IMG/VR virus record: IMGVR_UViG_3300021091_002612
Location: 1-20,140 of that record
Reading direction: 5' to 3' (one strand)
Origin: a virus
Length of the DNA stretch: 20,140 nt
Positions 2,643 through 16,641 of the stretch are shown here, piece by piece; positions within the stretch are counted from its first letter, which is position 1, and each line of letters starts with the position of its first letter. The notes below the pieces were generated by a model. That model saw only the letters and a program-made list of their open reading frames with translations, was not told the origin of the DNA and did no database searches. A program made the translations under genes and the position numbers.

Positions 2643-2778
2643 CCTGCATCAGCTCCATCAGGTCAAGCATGTGCGCTGCAAAAGCAACATGCGTCATTAC
2701 TGCATGATTGCCGGGCGCAATCCCATAGCTTTCACGCCACCAATCTACGAAGGCAGCCTTGATGGTTAGCTCGTTCAT
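2620..2778 (-). CDS. Short unknown phage protein (52 aa)
   Basis: A short gene found by reading the strand between the clamp and the ribbon-helix-helix gene. ATG at 2778 shares its A with the TGA of the clamp gene (TGATG), and the TAA at 2620-2622 falls inside the next gene by 23 nt. The product begins MNELTIKAAFVDWWRESYG and continues with APGNHAVMTHVAFAAHMLDL, then an acidic amphipathic end. The aromatic WWRESYG patch and the regular helix make it look like a true protein. Function unknown; no membrane segment or metal site. Confidence 0.65.
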   Translation of the reverse strand: MNELTIKAAFVDWWRESYGIAPGNHAVMTHVAFAAHMLDLMELMQDAERPPA

Positions 2779-3818
2779 CATTGCCTCACTTGGACTGGCA
2801 TTACCAAATAAGTTTGATCGACTTCAGCCTTCGGCTTGATCACGACTGGTGTTTTTTCACCATTTGCCATAAAAACCACATAGTCATGACTCTTAAAAGC
2901 CTTGAGTGCGTCAAGAATGTAGTTTACATTAAAAGCCCATACCCCTTCGCCTTCGTCCAAATAAGGCATCGACTCGGCGCCATTTAGCGCATCAGCTTCC
3001 GCTGTAATTGTCAAAACACCATTATTGGCTGCAACTTTAACGACCGAGTTGTGCTCTTCGGCCACAATTGCTACTCTTTCCAAACAGCGCAATAGCCTAT
3101 GCCGATCCACTTCGATTTGATGATCGAAAGTTTTGGGAATAAGGCTAATCAAGTTTGGATATTTGCCATCCAGCGTCCTTGAAAAAATAGTGATCCCCTC
3201 ATCAGTAACAATGACAGCTTGTCCCTTGTCCGTCGAAATAGTTACAGTTCGATCTTGGATCAAACGCATGGTGTTAGCTGGCAATACAAGGTCAATGCCG
3301 TCGGGCAGGTCAACTGCATAACGCATCATTCGATGACCGTCTGTCGCTTCCATATGTCCATTGGCAATGTGGATGCCCTGCAGAATTTGCTTGCTTGCAT
3401 CTTTGCTGGAACATGGCAGACAGGCTTTCACTCCATTTGAAAGTAAAAGCTCACTGGACTCGGACTCTACCACTGGTAAAGCAGGGTAGTCGAGTGCATC
3501 GTGAAATGGAATCTTGTAAGCACCGTCCAATGTTTTGATTAAATTGTTGTCAATACTAATAGCATCATCCTCCTCAAAACGGTTGGTCAAATTTGCTAGC
3601 AGTTTGTAAGGCATTGCCAAGCTGCCATTTTTTTCGACTAGCGCAGGCGTTGTGATGCTGATGCCAAGGTCCATGTTGAATCCAGTTAAAGTCATCTCAC
3701 CGTTCCTCGCATCGAACAGCACGCAACCAAGAATCGGATGGCTGTTGTTTGAACTAATAGCTGGTGAAATCGTTTTCAAAGCGTGGGACAGGTCGCCCTT
3801 TGTTGTAAGTAGTTTCAT
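2778..3818 (-). CDS. dnaN: DNA polymerase III beta sliding clamp
   Basis: A bacterial-type processivity clamp of 346 residues (family about 370), built from three repeated clamp domains. Signals: MKLLTTKGDLSHALK at the start, HPILGCVLFDA and LTGFNMDLGI in domain 1, ATDGHRMMRYAV in domain 2 (the conserved TDGHRL-like motif), FSRTLDGKYPN, and the typical end QTYLVMPVQVR. It would encircle DNA and tether the host replicative polymerase. I chose ATG 3818 over the upstream TTG 3839 because 3818 gives an ATGA overlap with the DUF3310 gene and the usual N-terminus. Its stop overlaps the next small gene. No DNA polymerase is visible in the window, so it probably serves host Pol III or a polymerase encoded elsewhere. 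Confidence 0.93.
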   Translation of the reverse strand: MKLLTTKGDLSHALKTISPAISSNNSHPILGCVLFDARNGEMTLTGFNMDLGISITTPALVEKNGSLAMPYKLLANLTNRFEEDDAISIDNNLIKTLDGAYKIPFHDALDYPALPVVESESSELLLSNGVKACLPCSSKDASKQILQGIHIANGHMEATDGHRMMRYAVDLPDGIDLVLPANTMRLIQDRTVTISTDKGQAVIVTDEGITIFSRTLDGKYPNLISLIPKTFDHQIEVDRHRLLRCLERVAIVAEEHNSVVKVAANNGVLTITAEADALNGAESMPYLDEGEGVWAFNVNYILDALKAFKSHDYVVFMANGEKTPVVIKPKAEVDQTYLVMPVQVRQ

Positions 3819-4015
3819 TGTCGGTGGATAAAACACCAAATTGCTTCGCCCAAATCCTCATCACCACCCTTGTGCCGTTCGCGCCAGATGTACTCTATTG
3901 CATTGCCTTTGATGCAACCACGCCATTCCTCAGGAGTGAGGGCTGATCGGATTGCATCGATGCAATCAATATTGCCACTGGTGTAATGGTCTGGATGGTT
4001 GATAGAGTCAGACAT
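3815..4015 (-). CDS. DUF3310 family protein
   Basis: A 66-residue protein of the phage family DUF3310. The pattern is clear: INHPDHYTSGNIDCIDAI at the N-terminus, then GCIKGNAIEYIWRERHKGG and EDLGEAIWCF. Family members occur in phage nucleotide-metabolism and replication regions; their biochemical role is not established. The start at ATG 4015 is preferred because the residues before it have no DUF3310 similarity and because it gives an 8-nt overlap with the upstream gene. Its TGA overlaps the clamp start in an ATGA junction, so it is probably coupled to clamp translation. Confidence 0.87.
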   Translation of the reverse strand: MSDSINHPDHYTSGNIDCIDAIRSALTPEEWRGCIKGNAIEYIWRERHKGGDEDLGEAIWCFIHRQ

Positions 4016-8601: not shown

Positions 8602-9219
8602 TTAAAAAGGGCAGTTCTCCAGTTGAAACACGTCCCAAGCATCAAGCCATGCGCCAATGCAGTCGTCAGGCTCGTTTTGAATCAGGCGGCAGCGGTTTGG
8701 TCCGACCACAACCGTGTAGCACCAATCCACATACAAGCCGTGATGATGGCCGTTCAACATCGCCAAGTAACCACCTAGTTGAGCTTTGGCTGGCTTGCGC
8801 CGATCAACAGCAGTTTCATTGCCAACAGTCTTTAGGTCACCCAATGCGATCTTGCCATTTTTAGATTTGACTAAAAAATCAAAGCTGCCGCCTACGCCCT
8901 TTTTGTGATCGCATAGGCGGTACTCGACTGCCAACACCTCGCTGTCGCGCAGCAGCCAACAATCCTGCAAAGCACTGGTCCATTCGCCGTAATCGGTATC
9001 TGGCAGCGGCTCCTGCTTCAACATGGCTTCGCAAAAGGCGTGAACAGCATTGCCGCGAGGCGCCCACACATGCTTCGTTTCCTCAAATCGACGGTGCTGT
9101 TCAAGGTTAAAACGATTCACCACACGCGAAACGCTAAACGGCAACCAGCGCCCGTTGTATCGGTATTTGTGGATTCCTTCGTGGAACTCCAGTCCATTGA
9201 TCGGCTCAAGCACTTGCAA
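8602..9219 (-). CDS. PD-(D/E)XK nuclease, Cas4/RecB-like
   Basis: A 205-residue nuclease of the PD-(D/E)XK superfamily, probably a 5'-3' or exo-type DNA exonuclease for recombination. Core residues: His60 (GNAVH), Glu99 (VEYRL), Asp114 (GGSFDFLV) and the Asp128-Leu-Lys130 of GDLKT, followed by a helix with Gln (AQLGGYLAML) typical of the RecB family. No Cys cluster for an iron-sulfur site is evident. The start is TTG 9219 or GTG 9213; neither has a Shine-Dalgarno. It is the first gene of the leftward block and lies directly behind P3. With SSB, the annealing protein and RusA it would form a recombination system. Confidence 0.78.
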   Translation of the reverse strand: MQVLEPINGLEFHEGIHKYRYNGRWLPFSVSRVVNRFNLEQHRRFEETKHVWAPRGNAVHAFCEAMLKQEPLPDTDYGEWTSALQDCWLLRDSEVLAVEYRLCDHKKGVGGSFDFLVKSKNGKIALGDLKTVGNETAVDRRKPAKAQLGGYLAMLNGHHHGLYVDWCYTVVVGPNRCRLIQNEPDDCIGAWLDAWDVFQLENCPF

Positions 9220-9243
9220 AAACAGTCGGTTAACAGGTTTAAT
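9214..9243 (+). promoter_or_regulatory. Rightward promoter candidate for the divergent operon
   Basis: TTGCAA at 9214-9219, an 18-nt spacer and TTTAAT at 9238-9243. The -10 is the left half of the palindrome TTTAATTAAA (9238-9247), whose other strand gives the -10 of the leftward P3. A start near 9250 leaves about 22 nt before the ATG at 9272. Confidence 0.4.
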
Positions 9244-9269
9244 TAAAGCTGTTCTGCTTCAAAAAGCAC
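9242..9269 (-). promoter_or_regulatory. Leftward promoter P3 (GTGCTT-16-TTTAAT)
   Basis: Leftward -35 GTGCTT at 9269-9264 followed by the same T-run as P1 and P2 (TGCTTTTTG), a 16-nt spacer and -10 TTTAAT at 9247-9242. It would start about 15-20 nt before the nuclease start codon. Slightly weaker match than P1/P2 because of spacing and the first base of the -35. Confidence 0.45.
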
Positions 9270-9271
9270 CA

Positions 9272-9454
9272 ATGGCAGTCGGAAAAGCAACCGGAATCGG
9301 CATCGACAACAGCCTACTCGATCGGCTCGAACAGTTTCGACCACCCTACATGACCCAAAAAGTGCACATCAACATACTTGTTGAGGAAGCATTGAAACGG
9401 CTCGAACAGCAGGAACAAGCTCCTGTCGAAACTGGCACGCTTACGCTGAAGTAG
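9272..9454 (+). CDS. Small ribbon-helix-helix-like regulator candidate (60 aa)
   Basis: A 60-residue protein with CopG/Arc-like layout: a short β segment (ATGIGIDNS), helix A (LLDRLEQF), a turn (RPPYMTQKV) and helix B (HINILVEEALKRLEQQEQ). It is the first rightward gene from the divergent control region, 25 nt from the palindromic -10, in the place where a phage early repressor or cII/Cro-like regulator usually lies. It could bind the palindrome and control both directions. The fold is judged from pattern only. Confidence 0.62.
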   Translation: MAVGKATGIGIDNSLLDRLEQFRPPYMTQKVHINILVEEALKRLEQQEQAPVETGTLTLK

Positions 9455-9502
9455 CTGGCTGCCGAGGCTCAAGCGAGTCGAGCGCATTGCCAAATATAAG
9501 GC

Positions 9503-9540
9503 AAAATAAAAGCGCCCTAGCTTGGACAGAAGCCAGGGCG
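9503..9540 (-). terminator. Intrinsic terminator, leftward
   Basis: On the leftward strand an arm CGCCCT-x-GCTT pairs with AAGC-x-AGGGCG (9513-9523 with 9530-9540; 10 pairs, one mismatch, 6-nt loop) and is followed by CTTTTATTTTG at 9512-9502. This is a textbook Rho-independent terminator for leftward transcription. No leftward protein gene lies upstream of it. In the rightward direction no T-run follows. Confidence 0.72.
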
Positions 9541-9552
9541 ATTAGTCTCAGC
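9503..9552 (-). ncRNA. OOP-like short leftward RNA (candidate)
   Basis: A leftward promoter candidate at 9587-9559 and the terminator at 9540-9503 would define an RNA of about 50 nt, ending in the hairpin and T-run. It lies between the small regulator gene and the replication initiator, the same place as the OOP antisense RNA of lambda (between cII and O). It would not overlap the coding part of the regulator, so its target, if any, may be the region between the genes or the initiator message start. Inference from arrangement only. Confidence 0.35.
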
Positions 9553-9558
9553 CGCTCG

Positions 9559-9587
9559 ATTTTACATGACTTTCGCTGTTAAGTCCA
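9559..9587 (-). promoter_or_regulatory. Leftward promoter candidate for the short RNA
   Basis: TGGACT at 9587-9582 (4 of 6 to TTGACA), a 17-nt spacer and TAAAAT at 9564-9559 (5 of 6 to TATAAT), with TG directly before the -10. It reads away from the initiator gene towards the terminator 20 nt further on. It overlaps the initiator start codon, so it could also interfere with initiator expression. Confidence 0.35.
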
Positions 9588-10357
9588 CGGGCTTTTCTGT
9601 TCTTCCGTACAGGTTGATGGACGAACAAAAAGACCCAAAGATTTTGATTATTTATGCCTGGCTTCATCGCCACGGTTGGAACTCCAACCATGGTTGTTTT
9701 GCGTCTTTGGCGACGTTGGCTGGCGAGGCTGGCGTATCCAGAAAAACCACGCAACGGGCATTGGCCATCCTCGTCCGTGACGGCTGGGTGACTGTGGAAA
9801 ACCGTCCAGGCAAGACCGCCGTTTACCGAATCCGCTCCGAAAAAGCCAGGTCGAAAACGACCCAAGTCAAAAACGACCCAGGTCGAAAACGACCTAGGGG
9901 TCAGGTCGAAAACGACCTAGGTACCCAGGTCGAAAACGACCTACGAACAAAAACCCATAAACAAGAACCCATTAACAACAAAAAACCCTTAAAGCTTCAA
10001 ACCGAGTTTGAAGCCGTTTGTTCGAAGCCTGTTGGCGACAGCAAAAAGCGGCAGCGGACCAAAGGCTCAGAGGCTTTTGAAGGGTTTTGGAAGCTGTACC
10101 TGTCCGCACCTGTTCGGGCAGCTAGCCAGTCCAAACCGAAGGCTTTAGCGCAATGGCAAAAAATCACCCGTTTTGAGCCGGAACGGGTTTTAATGGAGGC
10201 GCTCGAAACCGAGATCAAGCATCAGCAGGCTGCTGGTGATGCGTTTGTGATCCCGTTACCCGATTGTTTCCGCTGGCTACGGGACGAGCGTTATGCCGTC
10301 GTCAACGAGCGCCCTGCTGGCAGCAGCGGCTTTAACCACGAAACCTATGTCTTCTGA
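9566..10357 (+). CDS. Winged-helix replication initiator, O-like, with an internal origin
   Basis: A 263-residue protein of the phage replication-initiator type. Residues 10-90 form a winged helix-turn-helix: FSVLPYRLMDEQ, helices at about 24-38, the recognition unit SLATLAGEAGVSRKTTQRAL at 47-66, and a wing (DGWVTVENRPGKTAVYRI). Residues 91-150 are a linker rich in Lys, Arg, Asn and Thr, encoded by five palindromic repeats (9849-9941) and an A-rich stretch. Residues 155-263 form a second domain (EAFEGFWKLYL, then FRWLRDERY near the end), perhaps for helicase loading. This is the layout of lambda O: iterons and unwinding element inside the initiator gene. ATG 9566 is preferred; ATG 9617 is an alternative. 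Confidence 0.75.
   Translation: MTFAVKSTGFSVLPYRLMDEQKDPKILIIYAWLHRHGWNSNHGCFASLATLAGEAGVSRKTTQRALAILVRDGWVTVENRPGKTAVYRIRSEKARSKTTQVKNDPGRKRPRGQVENDLGTQVENDLRTKTHKQEPINNKKPLKLQTEFEAVCSKPVGDSKKRQRTKGSEAFEGFWKLYLSAPVRAASQSKPKALAQWQKITRFEPERVLMEALETEIKHQQAAGDAFVIPLPDCFRWLRDERYAVVNERPAGSSGFNHETYVF
9849..9941 (+). repeat. Five iteron-like palindromes (candidate replication origin)
   Basis: Five copies of GGTCGAAAACGACC (5-bp arms around AAAA) at 9849-9862, 9865-9878 (degenerate, AGTCAAAAACGACC), 9881-9894, 9904-9917 and 9928-9941. Centre-to-centre spacing is 16, 16, 23 and 24 nt. Relative to the host gene the copies fall in all three reading phases (1, 2, 0, 2, 2), so the conserved unit is DNA, not protein. 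Flanks include CCTAGG. Likely binding sites of the initiator that contains them. Confidence 0.82.
9942..9990 (+). other. A-rich unwinding element candidate with short tandem repeat
   Basis: Directly after the iterons the strand becomes strongly A-rich with few G. It contains ACCCATAAACAA at 9953-9964 and ACCCATTAACAA at 9967-9978, a 14-nt period, then ACCCTTAAA from 9985. This matches the placement of an AT-rich unwinding element beside initiator sites. It is still coding. Confidence 0.5.
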
Positions 10358-10677
10358 TGTCTTTGAAATTATTTGACTACGAAAACCGTGGGCGTTACGT
10401 CCATCAGGTTTATGACAACAAACAACGCCTTTCGACGCAATCTGTTTATCGCTTGGCCGGGTCAGGCAATTTTGCTGAAACCGAACTTGGTGATCCGAGG
10501 TTTCATTACTCGCCTGTCAGCGGTGACCATGCGATTGGCAAGTATGACAAGGATGGCCACTACTGCACCTACCTGCCGCCAATCCCCAGACCTGGCTCGA
10601 AAGAACCTGTTGGTCGATACGTGCGCCATCCGTGGGCAGAAGAGGAGCGCCGTCGTCAAGGCGCGATGGAGGCTTGA
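10357..10677 (+). CDS. Protein of unknown function (106 aa)
   Basis: Not recognised. The 106-residue product is rich in Tyr, Arg and Gly (FDYENRGRYVHQVYDNKQR, then GKYDKDGHYCTYLPPIPRPG) and ends with a basic, Glu-rich helix. The ATG at 10357 shares its A with the TGA of the initiator gene (TGATG), so it is probably translationally coupled to it. Possible roles in replication follow only from the neighbour. No membrane segment. Confidence 0.65.
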   Translation: MSLKLFDYENRGRYVHQVYDNKQRLSTQSVYRLAGSGNFAETELGDPRFHYSPVSGDHAIGKYDKDGHYCTYLPPIPRPGSKEPVGRYVRHPWAEEERRRQGAMEA

Positions 10678-10680
10678 TCC

Positions 10681-10977
10681 GTGAAACAACCGAAAATTGG
10701 AGGTTTGCAGCCGCTCGGCACGTTCCAACAAACTGGCGAAACGCTCGCCCGCATGATCGCCAAGGGACTGTGCACCCTGGACGACCTTGACGACAGGCCG
10801 CCTGGTTCAATTGATTTGCCCATGCCTGAGTACCGAAACATCGCCCGTGATTGGATTACGGGCAACCGCAACCGATGGGCTGAAATCAAAAACGAGTACG
10901 GGTCAGCTTCGGAGCCAGTAATCGAGCTGGTTTCCCCAAGAGACCTGCCCACAACTGAACAACCACTGCCGTTCTGA
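10681..10977 (+). CDS. Protein of unknown function (98 aa)
   Basis: Not recognised. GTG start at 10681, 3 nt after the previous stop; no ATG lies further upstream in frame. The product has a helical middle (GETLARMIAKGLCTLDDLDD), a Pro/Asp turn, then a basic-acidic helix (YRNIARDWITGNRNRWAEI) and a loose Pro/Ser tail. Placed between the initiator and the next small regulator, in the same operon, it may be a replication accessory. Confidence 0.6.
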   Translation: MKQPKIGGLQPLGTFQQTGETLARMIAKGLCTLDDLDDRPPGSIDLPMPEYRNIARDWITGNRNRWAEIKNEYGSASEPVIELVSPRDLPTTEQPLPF

Positions 10978-10981
10978 CCGC

Positions 10982-11287
10982 ATGAAGCGCATCGCTGTTA
11001 AGTGCTACTTGACCCAAGAAGAAAACGAGCTACTGTCGCGTCAAGCGAAACAGCTCAACATGGAGCGCGGTCAACTGATTCGCCAGAGGGCTCTAGGAGC
11101 CGCTGCAGGGCGCTCGAACGGCTCGGCAGGCAAAACTCCCTTAAAGGTCTACCACGAGGCCGTTGCAGCCGCTTACAGGGTGTCCAATGGTTACGCCCCT
11201 CGCCATGTCGTTGAAAGCATTGCCGCTGCCGTGCTCTGCTGCGTTGATCAACTCCAAGTGGACGAGGCGTTTGACGCTGTTGCCTAA
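10982..11287 (+). CDS. Ribbon-helix-helix-like protein, MobC-like pattern
   Basis: A 101-residue protein whose N-terminus looks like a ribbon-helix-helix: β segment KRIAVKCYL, TQEENELLSRQAKQLNM helix, GQLIRQRALG helix. This pattern is seen in relaxase accessory proteins and in small phage regulators. The C-terminal half has two helices, the last with Cys-Cys (AAAVLCCVDQLQ). It lies 4 nt downstream of the previous gene and ends the small-gene part of the rightward operon. A DNA-binding accessory is likely; there is no relaxase nearby. Confidence 0.6.
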   Translation: MKRIAVKCYLTQEENELLSRQAKQLNMERGQLIRQRALGAAAGRSNGSAGKTPLKVYHEAVAAAYRVSNGYAPRHVVESIAAAVLCCVDQLQVDEAFDAVA

Positions 11288-11322
11288 ACCGGCTAAAAAG
11301 GAGCGAAAGCCAGTCGTTTCAC

Positions 11323-11916
11323 ATGGTTATCGCTCCTGAATTTATCGATCAGACCCCAGTTGAAGACCTCAGGCCATACGACAAAAACCCAAGGACCCAT
11401 AGCGCAACTCAAATCGAACGCCTGGTGAACTCCATAAAAGAGTTCGGGTTCACTAATCCACTTCTGATCGATGACGATCAAAATGTCATCGCTGGTCACG
11501 GTCGCCTCGAAGCTGCAAAAATCCTTGGCCTTGAAACTGTCCCAACAATTACTCTGTCGCACCTAACGTCAGAGCAAAGGCGTGCTTACGTTATCGCTGA
11601 TAACCAGCTAGCTCTTAACTCTGGTTGGGATGACGACCTGCTCCAATCAGAAATTAACGCACTCGGTGAACTTGGCTACGACTTGACCCTTCTCGGCTGG
11701 GGCGATGAACTTCCCAGTTTCGGTGAAGAAATCGACCTGTCTGCCCTCGAAGACGAAGAAGACTTGTCCGAATACGCTGCTGGCGTACGCAAAGCGATTC
11801 AGATCGACTTCGAACCAGAAGACTACGAAGAGGCGCAGGCACTGGTATCCGCAGCTCGCAAGTCTGGTAAATATGTCGGCATGCTTTTAATCAATGCACT
11901 TAAAGACGATGCTTGA
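11323..11916 (+). CDS. ParB/Srx-fold protein, first gene of the DNA-modification cassette
   Basis: A 197-residue protein with an N-terminal ParB-like domain at about 5-115: PVEDLRPYDKNPRTHS, QIERLVNSIKEFGFTNPLLI, IAGHGRLEAAKILG, TVPTITLSHLTSEQRRAY, IADNQLALNSGWD. The GHGRLEA motif is the ParB nucleotide-binding signature. In phages this domain is commonly fused or adjacent to DNA methylases. The C-terminal third is very acidic (residues 120-150) followed by a short domain (QIDFEPEDYEEAQALVSAAR, KYVGMLLINALK). AAAAGGAG at 11296-11303 is far from the ATG (about 20 nt). A promoter candidate TTGACG-17-TAAAAA (11271-11299) is weak. It overlaps the next gene by 8 nt. Confidence 0.85.
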   Translation: MVIAPEFIDQTPVEDLRPYDKNPRTHSATQIERLVNSIKEFGFTNPLLIDDDQNVIAGHGRLEAAKILGLETVPTITLSHLTSEQRRAYVIADNQLALNSGWDDDLLQSEINALGELGYDLTLLGWGDELPSFGEEIDLSALEDEEDLSEYAAGVRKAIQIDFEPEDYEEAQALVSAARKSGKYVGMLLINALKDDA

Positions 11917-12706
11917 TTATCAAATCGCTATTCCCTCTTACAAGCGAACGGAAACACTAGCGAAAGCAACGCTGTCTATGTTAAAAAAACATGGTTGCGA
12001 CTTTTCGAACGTAACCATCTTTACCGCCGACAAAAACGAAACCAAAGCCTATTCCGCCATGCTTGGCATGGTCGGCATTCGAGCTGAAGTAGTTACTGGC
12101 GAACCAGGCATCGGCAAGCAACGCATCTTTATTAACAAACACTACCCAGTTGGTACGAGGGTTCTCAGCCTCGATGACGATATTTATGCCTTGTCGATCG
12201 TTGATGAAAACAAAAAACTGAATCCCTGTGATTGGACAATCGACCGCATTGCCTTAAAAGGGTTTCAAACCTGCGAAAAGGTCAACGCAAAAATGTGGGG
12301 AATCAATCCCGTTGAAAATGGCTTCTATATGGATCGCACCACCTCGATTGGCCTGCGATACATCTGTGCCAACTTCTTCGGGTCTTACGCCGGTGATCCT
12401 GTTTGGACCGCCACAGACCGTAAAGACTTCTCTTCAGGCGAAGACTTTGAATCCACGCTTCGATCATTTGTGCAATACAAAGGCGTCGTCCGCCTAGACG
12501 GTATTTGCCCTAAAACTAAATACTTCGCGCAAGGTGGCATCTGCGCTGAAATAGGCGGTGAAGACAAACGCAAACTAGACCATCACAAGCACCTCACCGA
12601 AATCGCTGCACGTTTTCCGCACCTATGCAAAACCTACAAAAAATCAGACGGCACTACTAACATCAAACTAAAACCAGTCACACGCGGCAAAATTGCTTGG
12701 CTATGA
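11909..12706 (+). CDS. Glycosyltransferase of the TET-associated type (TAGT)
   Basis: A 265-residue GT-A-like glycosyltransferase. Residues 5-13 (QIAIPSYKR) form the nucleotide-sugar-binding start of the fold, GEPGIGKQR lies at 64-72, and the metal-binding DxD motif is LDDD at 88-91, followed by IYAL. Later segments (WGINPVENGFYM, NFFGSYAGD, SGEDFE, KTKYFAQGGI) fit an acceptor-binding domain, and the C-terminus is basic. The neighbour is a TET/JBP dioxygenase overlapping by 4 nt, so it very probably transfers a sugar to the hydroxylated base in phage DNA. ATG 11909 overlaps the previous stop and begins at the conserved strand; ATG 11894 is possible. The family name is inferred from fold plus context. 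Confidence 0.82.
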   Translation: MLDYQIAIPSYKRTETLAKATLSMLKKHGCDFSNVTIFTADKNETKAYSAMLGMVGIRAEVVTGEPGIGKQRIFINKHYPVGTRVLSLDDDIYALSIVDENKKLNPCDWTIDRIALKGFQTCEKVNAKMWGINPVENGFYMDRTTSIGLRYICANFFGSYAGDPVWTATDRKDFSSGEDFESTLRSFVQYKGVVRLDGICPKTKYFAQGGICAEIGGEDKRKLDHHKHLTEIAARFPHLCKTYKKSDGTTNIKLKPVTRGKIAWL

Positions 12707-13491
12707 CCATTACAAAACTGCCAACCGTCATACTCAAACCCGTTCAGCACACCGTCAAAATCGGTGATTCTGTAACCAACCTGCAACCTACAATCACGGA
12801 TTCCTGCATCCTTGTGGACCCTGACGGCAGTCAGGTAGGACTGTTCCTCAAAGAGCTTCCGACAGAACTGCAAAATCTGGTCAACATCGCTGACCTCGAA
12901 GTTCGCTCCGATCGCGTTCCAAAATCAACCATGCGCCGCTCTTCAGGCATGATGGGCGCCGCCAAAGAAGTTGAGCAATACTCGGCCATTCTCGGCTCAT
13001 GCCCGCCTAAACCGCACATGCGCCGCCCATACCCCACACGCTCGTCAATACACTCCAAAGCCTCGGCGTCAACATTCGTCCGTGCCATGCTCAAAGCAGG
13101 CAAACTCGCTATGGGTCTCGTCGCTCACTACATCCCAGACGTCCACGCCAAGCACCTATCCGTTATCGAAAAACGCATCCCATCAGATTGGCGCTTCACC
13201 CCATACTTCTCCTCAACCATCTCGAACTGCAATATCGCTGCCCCAATCCACCAAGACAACGCCAACGTCAAAGGCGCCGTAAACCTCATCATTACCAAGC
13301 GTCAAAACTCAACAGGCGGCAACCTCTACGTTCCTGATTACAACGCCACCTTCGATCAATCAAATAATTCCCTTCTCGTTTACCCCGCATGGCGCAACAT
13401 GCACGGCGTAACACCAATCGTCCCAACGCATCCTGGTGGTTACCGTAACTCTCACGTCTGGTATGCTCTAGACTCTTTTGCAAACCTGTAA
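12703..13491 (+). CDS. TET/JBP-type 2-oxoglutarate, Fe(II)-dependent dioxygenase
   Basis: A 262-residue dioxygenase of the phage TET/JBP class, which hydroxylates 5-methylpyrimidine in DNA. The double-stranded β-helix signature is visible: His183-x-Asp185 (APIHQDNANV), a strand (AVNLIITKR), GGNLYVPDYN, distal His234 (NMHGVTPI) and the 2-oxoglutarate-binding Arg248 (GGYRNSHVWY). The N-terminal half carries helices with basic patches and a Cys-Pro-Pro turn near 100, probably for DNA binding. The ATG at 12703 overlaps the glycosyltransferase stop (ATGA). With the glycosyltransferase and ParB-fold protein it forms a hypermodification cassette. No cytosine methyltransferase or other precursor enzyme is visible here, so the substrate base is undecided. 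Confidence 0.88.
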   Translation: MTITKLPTVILKPVQHTVKIGDSVTNLQPTITDSCILVDPDGSQVGLFLKELPTELQNLVNIADLEVRSDRVPKSTMRRSSGMMGAAKEVEQYSAILGSCPPKPHMRRPYPTRSSIHSKASASTFVRAMLKAGKLAMGLVAHYIPDVHAKHLSVIEKRIPSDWRFTPYFSSTISNCNIAAPIHQDNANVKGAVNLIITKRQNSTGGNLYVPDYNATFDQSNNSLLVYPAWRNMHGVTPIVPTHPGGYRNSHVWYALDSFANL

Positions 13492-13499
13492 TAACAAAT

Positions 13500-13826
13500 A
13501 TGGCTGGTAAAACTCGTTGCACTGCAGCAGAAAAAATGTTCAGAACTGCTCGTATCGCACGCATGATTGCCAATGGTGCGACACGATCGGATCTTTTGCA
13601 ATACGGTGCTGCTGAATGGGGGCTCAGCCCACGCATGGTAGACGAGTACCGTGCCGCAGCAATGAAGGAACTGGAACTTGATTGGAATCTTGACCGCCAG
13701 GCCTACGCGGCAGTCCTGTTATCGCAACTTAACATCGTACACAAAAAGTCTATGGAAGGCGGCAACCTGGCTGTCACCCTTGGCTGCATTAACACCGCTG
13801 CAAAAATTGCCAAGATTTTGGATTGA
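13500..13826 (+). CDS. terS: Terminase small subunit
   Basis: A 108-residue protein directly before the large terminase. It has an N-terminal helix-turn-helix (AEKMFRTARIARMIANGATR, then AEWGLSPRMVDEYR) for binding the packaging start site, and a helical C-terminal part (LLSQLNIVHKKSMEGGN, LGCINTAAKIAKI) for ring assembly and contact with the motor. Length and position fit small terminases. Its stop overlaps the TerL start (TGATG). It starts 8 nt after the dioxygenase stop, so packaging and modification genes are one transcription unit. Confidence 0.83.
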   Translation: MAGKTRCTAAEKMFRTARIARMIANGATRSDLLQYGAAEWGLSPRMVDEYRAAAMKELELDWNLDRQAYAAVLLSQLNIVHKKSMEGGNLAVTLGCINTAAKIAKILD

Positions 13827-15151
13827 TGGGGTTCCTTAGCTCATTGCCCTCGGGATCTGTTCTTTCGCCGATAGTCGAACCCAATACTGATGCGCAGTTA
13901 GCAATCGCCTCAGTAAGCGATACCCTTTACGACACCCTCACCGAACCGCAACGCAAGGTATACGACGCACCAGAACGGTTCAAAATGCTTTGCTCTGGTC
14001 GTCGCTTCGGCAAGACATATCTTTGCATTACTCGTCTCGTCAACTGGGCTGCTACTAAACCAAACAGCCTGAACTGGTACGTCACGGCAAACTACCGGAT
14101 GGCGAAACAAATCGCCTGGCGTCAACTCAAGGCCATGATTCCGCCTGATGTTTGCGTAAAACGAAACGAGTCTGAGTTGAGCCTTGAACTCGTCAATGGC
14201 AGCATCATTGCCCTTAAAGGCGCGGAAAACCCAGACACGCTGCGTGGCGTCAGCCTTTCAACTCTCATCGTTGACGAAGCTGCGTACGTCAAACAAGACG
14301 CTTGGGAAATGGTTCTGCGTCCTGCTCTGTCAGACCAAGGTGGTCCGGCTTGGTTTATTACTACGCCCGCTGGCCTGAACTGGTTTCATGATCTTTGGGA
14401 ACAAGCGCAGCAGGAACCTGACTGGCGTACGTTTTCATACTCCACCATTGAAGGTGGCAACGTATCTCAAGAAGAAATCGACGCTGCCAAACGCACCCTG
14501 GATGAACGCACCTTTCGCCAGGAATATCTCGCCAGCTTTGAAACGCTGTCTGGCCGCGTTTATCCAGACTTCTCTGACGACAACATTTCAGACACCGTTC
14601 AGGACACAGGAGCTGAAATCTACTGGGGCACAGACTTCAACGTATCAGTCATGGCTGGTGTTCTTGGCAGTCGCGTGGGCGACACGCTGCATATCTGGGA
14701 TGAACTGGCAGTCAACCAGTCCAATACCGACGAAGTTTGCACCCTGTTAAAAGAACGCTTTCCTGGCCGCAAAATCATTGCTTATCCAGACCCGACAGGT
14801 TCAGCTCGCAAGACCAGTTCCGCCGGTAAAACTGACCATGACATTATTCGTCGTTACGGCTTTAGCTGCATGAGCCCGAAAGCTCCTTGGTCGGTGAAGG
14901 ACAAAATCAACGCGACCAACTGGATGGTTCGCACTGCCGATGGGCATTTGAAACTATTTGTCCACCCTCGTTGCAAACACACCATCAAAGCCTTGAAAAA
15001 CGTGACATACAAACAAGGCGCAGACGAGTACGTTATTGATAAATCAGCAGGCATTGAGCACTGGACCGATGGACTTGGATATCTGATCCTTGGTGCCTTC
15101 AATCCCCTTTACGAGCGTGCTGGCAAGGGGACTGGCATTAGGATCTATTGA
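13826..15151 (+). CDS. terL: Terminase large subunit, ATPase and nuclease
   Basis: A 441-residue packaging motor. Walker A is SGRRFGKT at 57-64, Walker B TLIVDEA at 146-152, coupling motif FITTPAG at 178-183. The RNase H-like nuclease follows: Asp270 (YWGTDFNVS), Asp322 in AYPDPTG at 319-325, and a late Asp in HWTDGLGYLI near 420. It cuts the concatemer and pumps DNA into the prohead. The in-frame TTG at 13823 is less likely than ATG 13826, which overlaps the TerS stop. The PDPTGSARKTSSAGKTDHD segment is typical of siphovirus and T7-like large terminases. Confidence 0.95.
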   Translation: MGFLSSLPSGSVLSPIVEPNTDAQLAIASVSDTLYDTLTEPQRKVYDAPERFKMLCSGRRFGKTYLCITRLVNWAATKPNSLNWYVTANYRMAKQIAWRQLKAMIPPDVCVKRNESELSLELVNGSIIALKGAENPDTLRGVSLSTLIVDEAAYVKQDAWEMVLRPALSDQGGPAWFITTPAGLNWFHDLWEQAQQEPDWRTFSYSTIEGGNVSQEEIDAAKRTLDERTFRQEYLASFETLSGRVYPDFSDDNISDTVQDTGAEIYWGTDFNVSVMAGVLGSRVGDTLHIWDELAVNQSNTDEVCTLLKERFPGRKIIAYPDPTGSARKTSSAGKTDHDIIRRYGFSCMSPKAPWSVKDKINATNWMVRTADGHLKLFVHPRCKHTIKALKNVTYKQGADEYVIDKSAGIEHWTDGLGYLILGAFNPLYERAGKGTGIRIY

Positions 15152-15195
15152 TTGCCATTCCCTTAGACTGCTCGCATCGACAGCGTTAGTTTGCC

Positions 15196-16641
15196 GTGTA
15201 CACCGGATACAACTTCTACGACCGGCCACTAGCGCAGCGGACTGTCACAAAAGTCCAAGACCCTAATACGGCATGGTTTACGCAAGAGCCGCATTGGATC
15301 CTGATTGAAGACCTGCTGCAAGGCACCTATGGGATGCGCAAGAAGCATCGCCGGTACCTGCCGCAGGAACCACGCGAACTAGATGAGTCCTACGACAACC
15401 GCTTAGCACGCAGTGTGGTGCCGCCGTACTACGTCCGCCTTGAGCGGATGCTGGCAGGGATGCTTACCCGTAAGCCAGTCAGGCTTGACGATACGGCTGA
15501 TGCCATCCGTGAGCAGTTGTTTGATGTTGACCTACAAGGCAATGACCTCAATGTCTGGACCTACGAAACCGCACGCAAAATGGTCCGCTATGGGCACGTT
15601 GGTGTCTTGGTGGATGCACCGGCTTCTGGGGGTAGACCCTATTGGGTGAGCTACACGCCTAGGCAGATCCTTGGCTGGCGCACCGAGCAGCAAGAAGGCA
15701 AACAGGTGTTGACGCAGTTGCGGCTGTCGGAAGTGGTCACCGTTCCTGATGGTTTATACGGCGAAAAGGAAGTGCAGCAAATCCGGGTGCTGACGCCTGG
15801 TGAATATCAACTGCACCGCAAGGATGACAACAGCGACTTCGTGATCGTTGATGAAGGCCGAACCAGCCTTTCAGAGATCCCGTTCAGCCTCGCCTATGCA
15901 CAGCGGCATGGCTTTATGGAGTCGCGTCCGCCGCTTGAGGATATTGCCGAGCTGAACCTGAAGACCTATCAGATCCAGTCTGATCTGGACAACCAGCTCC
16001 ATATCAGCGCCGTGCCGATGCTGGCGTTTTATGGTTTCCCGTCAGCAGCAGAGGAAGTCAGCGCTGGTCCTGGCGAGGCGATTGCATTTCCGGCTGATGG
16101 CCGTGCTGAATACATTGAGCCGCAAGGCAAATCCTTTGACGCGCAGTTCCGCAGGCTAGAGCAGCTAGCACTGCAGATCAATGAACTTGGCCTGTCGGCA
16201 GTCCTTGGTCAGAAGCTCAGCGCCGAGACGGCAGAAGCAAAACGCATTGACCGCAGCCAAGGCGATAGCACCATGATGGTGATCGCGCAGAACATGCAAG
16301 ACATGATCGACAATTGCCTGCAATACCACGCGCAATACCTCGGCAACGCAACCGCTGCCGGTAGCGCGTATGTCAACCGCGACTTCCTTGGTGCACGCCT
16401 TGAGCCGCAAGATATTCAGGCATTGCTGTCGCTTTACACCGCTGGCACCATCAGCCAGGAAACGCTGCTGACCGAACTGGCAGAAGGCGATGTCCTTGGC
16501 GATAATTTCGATGTAGACGAAGAGCTTGAGGCCACTTCCAATGCGGGGCTTGACGTATCTTCTACTGGACTGGCTGACAGACTGGTTGGTGGCGCTGATG
16601 ATCTTGGTGGAACCGAAGAAACCGAGGCGACCGGGGATTGA
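15196..16641 (+). CDS. Portal protein, DUF4055-like
   Basis: A 481-residue portal, the dodecameric gate through which DNA enters the head. Its N-terminus (HWILIEDLLQGTYGMRKKHR, then YLPQEPREL and YDNRLARSVVPPYYVRLER) and the sequence MLAGMLTRKPVRLDD match the DUF4055 portal pattern. A mixed domain (VGVLVDAPASGG, the β-rich stem region) and the long helix with LEQLALQINELGLSAVLG follow; the C-terminus is acidic and Gly-rich. The start is GTG at 15196, the only start after the in-frame stop at 15187. The 44-nt gap after TerL holds no visible signal. Position between terminase and MuF protein is standard. Confidence 0.88.
   Translation: MYTGYNFYDRPLAQRTVTKVQDPNTAWFTQEPHWILIEDLLQGTYGMRKKHRRYLPQEPRELDESYDNRLARSVVPPYYVRLERMLAGMLTRKPVRLDDTADAIREQLFDVDLQGNDLNVWTYETARKMVRYGHVGVLVDAPASGGRPYWVSYTPRQILGWRTEQQEGKQVLTQLRLSEVVTVPDGLYGEKEVQQIRVLTPGEYQLHRKDDNSDFVIVDEGRTSLSEIPFSLAYAQRHGFMESRPPLEDIAELNLKTYQIQSDLDNQLHISAVPMLAFYGFPSAAEEVSAGPGEAIAFPADGRAEYIEPQGKSFDAQFRRLEQLALQINELGLSAVLGQKLSAETAEAKRIDRSQGDSTMMVIAQNMQDMIDNCLQYHAQYLGNATAAGSAYVNRDFLGARLEPQDIQALLSLYTAGTISQETLLTELAEGDVLGDNFDVDEELEATSNAGLDVSSTGLADRLVGGADDLGGTEETEATGD

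Follow-up and report, generated by a model that had tools for sequence, protein, structure and literature searches.

Base J of kinetoplastids is synthesized in two steps, in which the TET/JBP dioxygenases JBP1 and JBP2 act first and a glycosyltransferase second, and no DNA methyltransferase is required; T-even phages make hydroxymethylcytosine before replication. The association of genes for TET, TAGT (TET-associated glycosyltransferase) and ParB in phages is already known as a kind, and the Pfam family PF20691 is named for it. Here, we analyze such a cassette in a tailed-phage sequence of 20140 bases (IMG/VR record IMGVR_UViG_3300021091_002612, a fragment by class; hereafter, the window), in which three genes encode a stand-alone ParB_N-domain protein (11323..11916, + strand, 197 amino acids [aa], PF02195), a TAGT-family glycosyltransferase with an LDDD motif (11909..12706, + strand, 265 aa, PF20691) and a TET/JBP-fold Fe(II)/2-oxoglutarate dioxygenase (12703..13491, + strand, 262 aa). 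Comparative genomics shows that the middle gene occupies an exchange slot, which in related phages is either empty or filled by an FkbM methyltransferase, by a kinase-like P-loop protein or by a TAGT of one of three types, and this suggests that the phages alter the chemical coat of their own DNA by swapping one gene. The slot is invisible from a single sequence and emerges only when relatives are compared; together with the argument for thymine as the substrate, it is what the comparison adds to the core reading of an earlier first-pass annotation of the window.

Relatives were drawn from IMG/VR as the best 80 of 191 loci for a TET query, the best 80 of 195 for an FkbM query and the best 80 of at least 570 for a ParB query; these sets overlap and represent the nearest relatives. 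Among the TET-query loci, ParB lies upstream of TET in 71 of 80 and the gene for the terminase large subunit (TerL) downstream in 77, starting 286-549 nucleotides (nt) after TET, and the order is never broken; the nine loci without ParB have at most 822 nt of sequence before TET, and TerL is absent from L011, L080 and L084. Adjacency to the terminase, which the first-pass annotation had taken for a peculiarity of the window, is thus general among its relatives. TET follows ParB in 79 of the best 80 ParB loci (the remaining one, L279, has too little sequence), and each of the best 80 FkbM relatives is flanked by these two genes. What lies between ParB and TET in the TET-query loci is FkbM in 49, the second TAGT type in 17, the window-type TAGT in 7, a P-loop protein in 2 and nothing in 4, one locus being cut off. 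These counts were preferred since the FkbM number in the 130-row set (83) is inflated by the FkbM query. The slot FkbM methyltransferase scores 43.8 bits against PF05050 (cut-off 22.7) and the second TAGT type 62.8 and 48.3 bits against PF20691 (cut-off 27.5); the slot gene of L082 was found to be of this second type by its reading frames, and L259 carries the third type (PF20691, 37.9 bits).

Exchange is seen between closely similar phages. L026, with FkbM, and L067, with the second TAGT (in the order ParB-TAGT2-TET-TerS-TerL), share 96% nucleotide identity in ParB, 92% in TET, 94% in the gene at the TerS position and 95% in TerL, against 49% in the slot; for L285 and L286 the corresponding values are 92, 92, 98 and 95%, against 43%. 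ParB and TET are 86 and 94% identical between L207 and L317, and the slot gene of the former is missing from the latter. The window itself carries a slot type unlike that of its nearest tree neighbors, L006 and L008. A quick maximum-likelihood tree was built from 81 TETs, to which the 130 rows were reduced by similarity after loci without a full ParB or TET had been excluded. It requires a minimum of 13 changes of slot type, compared with a mean of 26 after shuffling and a value as low in 0 of 200 shuffles, and well-supported branches alone force five changes for FkbM and seven for the second TAGT. Moreover, comparison of the window with L006 gave dN/dS values of 0.11/3.7 for ParB and 0.14/1.45 for TET. 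The cassette is real, constrained and widespread.

Related gene sets occur in named phages. Mycobacterium phage Nigel has the order ParB-TET-TerS-TerL, Margaery ParB-TET-hypothetical-terminase and mycobacteriophage Acadian ParB-TET-TAGT-PIG-L-TerS-TerL. In Gordonia phage CaiB, ParB, TET and terminase are near neighbors, and an amino acid:DNA transferase (ADDT) and the P-loop kinase Ploopntkinase3 lie beside TET; enzymes of these kinds act on 5-hydroxymethyluracil DNA in thymine hypermodification. Arthrobacter phage Altadena carries ParB, TET and glycosyltransferase genes with no annotated terminase gene within ~4 kb, which shows that the terminase link is not universal. The SAR11 (Pelagibacter) phage HTVC112P has the order ParB-TET (PF12851, 103 bits)-FkbM (PF05050, 52 bits), with eight genes separating FkbM from TerL, a distant and apparently independent association; its TET is likely misnamed as "DnaJ chaperone/SNF2." A de-N-acetylase gene follows the glycosyltransferase gene in Acadian (L324, 2438-3022, PF02585) and, by annotation, in Altadena (L325, 4735-5328), which suggests that the cap there may be N-acetylglucosamine converted to glucosamine. 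The records of MED4-184 and P-HS2 (L002 and L004) are letter-identical over 38327 bases though filed as different isolates, and we counted them as one genome.

By its structure model, the dioxygenase is a TET-fold enzyme, and oxidation of a 5-methylpyrimidine in DNA is predicted for it. The model, built from 21 sequences (pLDDT 84), found TET2 (4nm6, Z 17.9) and NgTet1 (4lt5, Z 17.6) in a structure search of the PDB, the first 16 rows being TET2, NgTet1, CcTet and CMD1 (Z 15.4-17.9), with FTO/AlkB no higher than about 14. When a profile confined to the catalytic core was compared with the PDB, all eight distinct sequences that it matched with E values of 1 or lower (best 0.004) were TET-family proteins. 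The whole-length TET profile placed TAL-effector repeats in its first 28 of 28 rows, which we rejected as spurious sums of numerous weak matches to a single helical stretch; CMD1 and TET2 stood below them at E 0.0006-0.007. Residues H183, D185 and H234 (predicted by homology as iron ligands), R248 (predicted 2-oxoglutarate contact), N188 and Y254 are kept in all 130 distinct TETs, window included. The position of L256, a Leu in 127 of the 130, is His in TET2 and NgTet1 (YQH and FAH), and we take this His to be a contact to 5-methylcytosine. No J-binding domain was found beside the dioxygenase, in whose 262 aa a single Pfam family was detected. None of the 34 bacterial genome stretches that matched a pattern was a TET relative, hence no prophage context was found. 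The TET family goes by the name "queuine tRNA-ribosyltransferase" in phrog_6059 and in NC_020847; in the latter record (L002, 15790-17914), where ParB is called "DNA methylase," both names are likely wrong.

The ParB protein matches ParB_N as its sole Pfam domain (34.7 bits, cut-off 26.3) and is akin to the N-terminal region found in phage ParB-DNA-methyltransferase proteins (phrog_498, E 8e-47), several of its annotated matches being methyltransferases; it is a plausible DNA-binding or targeting partner. The glycosyltransferase scores 37.8 bits against PF20691 (cut-off 27.5), with only residues 4-106 matched, and a DxD-type motif, D89-D91, is invariant across eight aligned TAGT members. Its structure model from eight sequences (pLDDT 45) was unusable for fold assignment, and its profile had no meaningful match among solved structures. 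Translation of this gene was placed at a conserved ATG, 11909, within an open reading frame whose longest form begins at 11894, and that of the dioxygenase at ATG 12703, so that ParB and glycosyltransferase genes overlap by 8 nt and those of glycosyltransferase and TET by 4 nt. The first-pass annotation had described three rightward overlapping genes at 11323-13491, with GHGRLEA in ParB, LDDD in the glycosyltransferase and HxD (183-185, here HQD), H234 and R248 in the dioxygenase; the coordinates proved right, and every motif stands where it was said to be. Its three family assignments were borne out by profiles, structure comparison and the PDB core profile, and its idea of a DNA base-modification cassette is supported as well. 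The profile comparison it proposed came out divided, with ParB_N and TAGT above their cut-offs and Tet_JBP below the curated one.

We postulate that the cassette carries out post-replicative hydroxylation and capping of phage DNA, and with the base left open we regard this as highly probable; with thymine as the base, it is still rather probable. In the first step, as fold and residues indicate, the TET/JBP-type dioxygenase would hydroxylate a pyrimidine of the phage DNA at its 5-methyl group; this pyrimidine is most likely thymine, and the product would then be 5-hydroxymethyluracil, which JBP makes on the way to base J. In the second, to judge from its family, the TAGT glycosyltransferase would add a sugar to that hydroxyl, and ParB would probably recruit the enzymes to DNA. 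TET was assigned to step one and the slot enzyme to the cap mainly because a glycosyltransferase, an FkbM protein and a kinase-like protein can each act on a hydroxyl, and because they substitute for one another next to a dioxygenase whose product would be a hydroxymethyl group. In relatives with another slot gene, FkbM would add a predicted O-methyl cap and the P-loop protein possibly a phosphoryl cap; a kinase that phosphorylates 5-hydroxymethyluracil in DNA is described in PMC7653180. Swapping the slot gene would change the outermost chemistry with the hydroxylation step kept, and the likely purpose would be escape from host nucleases that recognize one particular modification. We tentatively suggest, as a specific form of this scheme, that phages of picocyanobacteria and SAR11 hydroxylate thymine and cap it through the exchangeable gene, giving 5-methoxymethyluracil, an O-methylated hydroxymethyl base, in P-HS2, MED4-117 and HTVC112P, whereas the window phage would have a glycosyl-hydroxymethyluracil, in effect the base J of a phage. 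We know of no report of 5-methoxymethyluracil in natural DNA and found none among the open-access papers listed, where we also found no paper tying FkbM to phage DNA modification of hydroxymethyl bases and, for the isolate names, none that mentions HTVC112P.

Thymine is favored over 5-methylcytosine, as in JBP, because C5-methyltransferases of family PF00145 are rare among the relatives and are found neither in the ten whole phage records nor in the genome that we identify as MED4. The first-pass annotation had left the methyl group to a gene elsewhere, to the host or to thymine as in JBP; the last of these is now preferred, if unproven. PF00145 was sought in 50 of 82 records, the longer ones, comprising 48 IMG/VR and two Prochlorococcus phages. 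It is missing from the window, a 20140-base fragment of its genome, and from all ten whole TET-bearing phage records (two Prochlorococcus phages, five actinophages, HTVC112P, Acadian and Altadena), and it occurs in two of the 48 IMG/VR relatives, L038 and L043, which makes the lack of a methyltransferase, noted earlier as a peculiarity of the window, a general feature. In L038 and L043 (L086 and L085), the PF00145 gene lies in a RusA neighborhood, away from the cassette, and FkbM fills the slot. None of 19 records searched contained PF00303, which argues against a pre-replicative hydroxymethylase. As to the host, PMC7852597 places a primer at MED4 position 1,457,449. The same primer sits at exactly 1,457,449 in genome G085, which we therefore identify as MED4, the host of P-HS2/MED4-184 and MED4-117; genome G095 also contains the primer. 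No PF00145 match was found in G085. Since neither these phages nor their host have a detectable C5-methyltransferase, thymine would be their simplest substrate. For the window phage thymine is likely too, the case being weaker for a phage that is represented by a genome fragment and whose cyanobacterial host is a suggestion.

Several observations weigh against the proposed scheme. The match of the dioxygenase to Tet_JBP (PF12851; residues 107-250, E 1.1e-5, 25.1 bits) falls below the curated cut-off of 34.9, as it does in the tested actinophage relatives, with HTVC112P above it (103.2 bits). The P-loop protein does not attain the cut-off of any Pfam family, and its two occurrences (L069 and L070) amount to a single case, the TET tree is a quick one with 23 of its 78 inner branches unresolved, and the FkbM profile finds an RNA methyltransferase as its best match among solved structures, an FkbM protein ranking lower; the proposal that FkbM would O-methylate DNA is read from its Pfam family. 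A C5-methyltransferase outside PF00145 would escape our search, and phage TETs are said, in the 2021 work of Burke et al., to act on 5-methylcytosine made by a co-encoded methyltransferase. This published precedent, the two PF00145 genes among the IMG/VR relatives and the presence of PF00145 in 31 of 87 genomes from the genus Prochlorococcus and in 33 of 200 sampled at the family level, which makes a host source possible for the window phage, speak for a scheme in which the same two steps act on 5-methylcytosine, supplied by the host or from elsewhere in the unfinished genome, and give glycosylated 5-hydroxymethylcytosine. N188 and Y254, which match TET2 residues, would fit that scheme, while the replacement by Leu, in 127 of 130 TETs, of the His that we take to contact the base speaks against it. 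The TAGT of phage T6 acts on glucosylated hydroxymethylcytosine (PMC13216743), a further point in favor of this scheme. Set against the absence of PF00145 from the window, the whole phage records and the MED4-identified genome, we judge a 5-methylcytosine substrate possible, if unlikely.

The modification may also mark DNA for packaging, as a pac-like signal or as a switch from replication to packaging, instead of or besides restriction escape. The short distance from TET to TerL in 77 of 80 relatives and the closeness of ParB, TET and terminase genes in Nigel, Margaery, CaiB and Acadian would suit such a role. However, the cassette of Altadena has no terminase nearby and that of HTVC112P is parted from TerL by eight genes, and the exchange of caps between near-identical phages is more in keeping with evasion of defenses than with a recognition signal that stays constant; hence, we regard packaging as an improbable explanation. 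A target other than phage DNA for the dioxygenase, such as RNA, with the slot enzymes decorating something else, would agree with the name "queuine tRNA-ribosyltransferase" found in the databases. Since fold and core profile are those of TET, the gene is partnered by ParB_N and by families that take their names from association with TET, and no tRNA-ribosyltransferase family appeared at E 0.1 in Pfam or NCBIfam, we consider this very improbable. Hydroxylation and capping of phage DNA, with thymine as the favored base, thus remains our preferred reading.

An open reading frame encoding 108 aa (13500..13826, + strand) begins 8 nt past TET and is followed by TerL (13823..15151, + strand; PF03237, 55.6 bits, cut-off 22). 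Its product matches phrog_34910, a family of unknown function, and had no meaningful match in Pfam, NCBIfam or solved structures, and the terS label given to it in the first-pass annotation therefore reflects position only, with no homology support. The first-pass annotation had put the cassette in the late operon; the run of genes on this strand opens farther upstream, with a replication-initiation-like gene at 9566. Within that gene, two near-identical inverted repeats at 9846-9898, 33 bp apart, are possibly an origin as in lambda O; they are part of an excess of stem-loop/T-run sites in 9200-15300 (17 found versus 8.1 expected, standard deviation 2.7). A promoter scan gave two sites where 4.1 were expected, and both lie on the - strand. 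Elsewhere in the window, on the - strand, lies a gene for an RpoD-like sigma factor (518-1513), whose best family is TIGR02997, the cyanobacterial RpoD/SigA subfamily (E 2e-72, below that model's cut-off), and which has relatives at 45-54% identity in L007, L017, L035, L057 and L063. Because of this subfamily and because the nearest cultured relatives infect Prochlorococcus, a cyanobacterial host is suggested for the window phage. A dCTP deaminase (1695-2249, - strand; PF22769 and TIGR02274, above cut-off) would supply dUTP/dTTP, consistent with thymine-centered metabolism and no proof of it, and a phage-encoded bacterial-type DNA polymerase III beta clamp (2778-3839, - strand) matches PF02768 and PF00712.

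What the comparison contributes is a clean natural experiment, in which phages that are otherwise almost the same have exchanged the one enzyme that is predicted to cap a hydroxylated base. In cultured pairs (P-HS2 with Prochlorococcus MED4, HTVC112P with SAR11 and Acadian with M. smegmatis), two questions become testable, namely whether a phage TET acts on thymine without a C5-methyltransferase and whether DNA chemistry changes through the swap of one gene. If the reading is true, methylation of a hydroxymethyl group in DNA by an FkbM-type enzyme would represent a base chemistry new to DNA, with the enzyme of use as a reagent, and exchange at the slot would amount to a form of antigenic variation exerted through DNA chemistry.

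The scheme resembles base J synthesis by JBP1 and JBP2 in combining a dioxygenase and a glycosyltransferase with no need for a DNA methyltransferase. Unlike those proteins, the window enzyme is a single domain of 262 aa without J-binding or SNF2 part, it is borne by a phage, its second enzyme is exchangeable and its substrate is predicted. As in the clusters reported by Burke et al. 2021, a phage TET stands in a complex base-modification gene cluster; unlike them, the window and the ten whole phage records have no PF00145. T-even phages, whose route is pre-replicative, differ by the absence of PF00303 from the 19 records searched here, although the TAGT of T6, a beta-glucosyl-HMC-alpha-glucosyltransferase (HMC, hydroxymethylcytosine), belongs to PF20691 like the window glycosyltransferase. 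Acadian also keeps ParB, TET and TAGT beside TerS and TerL, but its TET, which is very distant, precedes its TAGT (33.5% identical) and a PIG-L deacetylase is added. P-HS2/MED4-184 and MED4-117 have the gene order of the window and a TET that is 69% identical, and they differ from it in carrying an FkbM methyltransferase in the slot in place of the TAGT.

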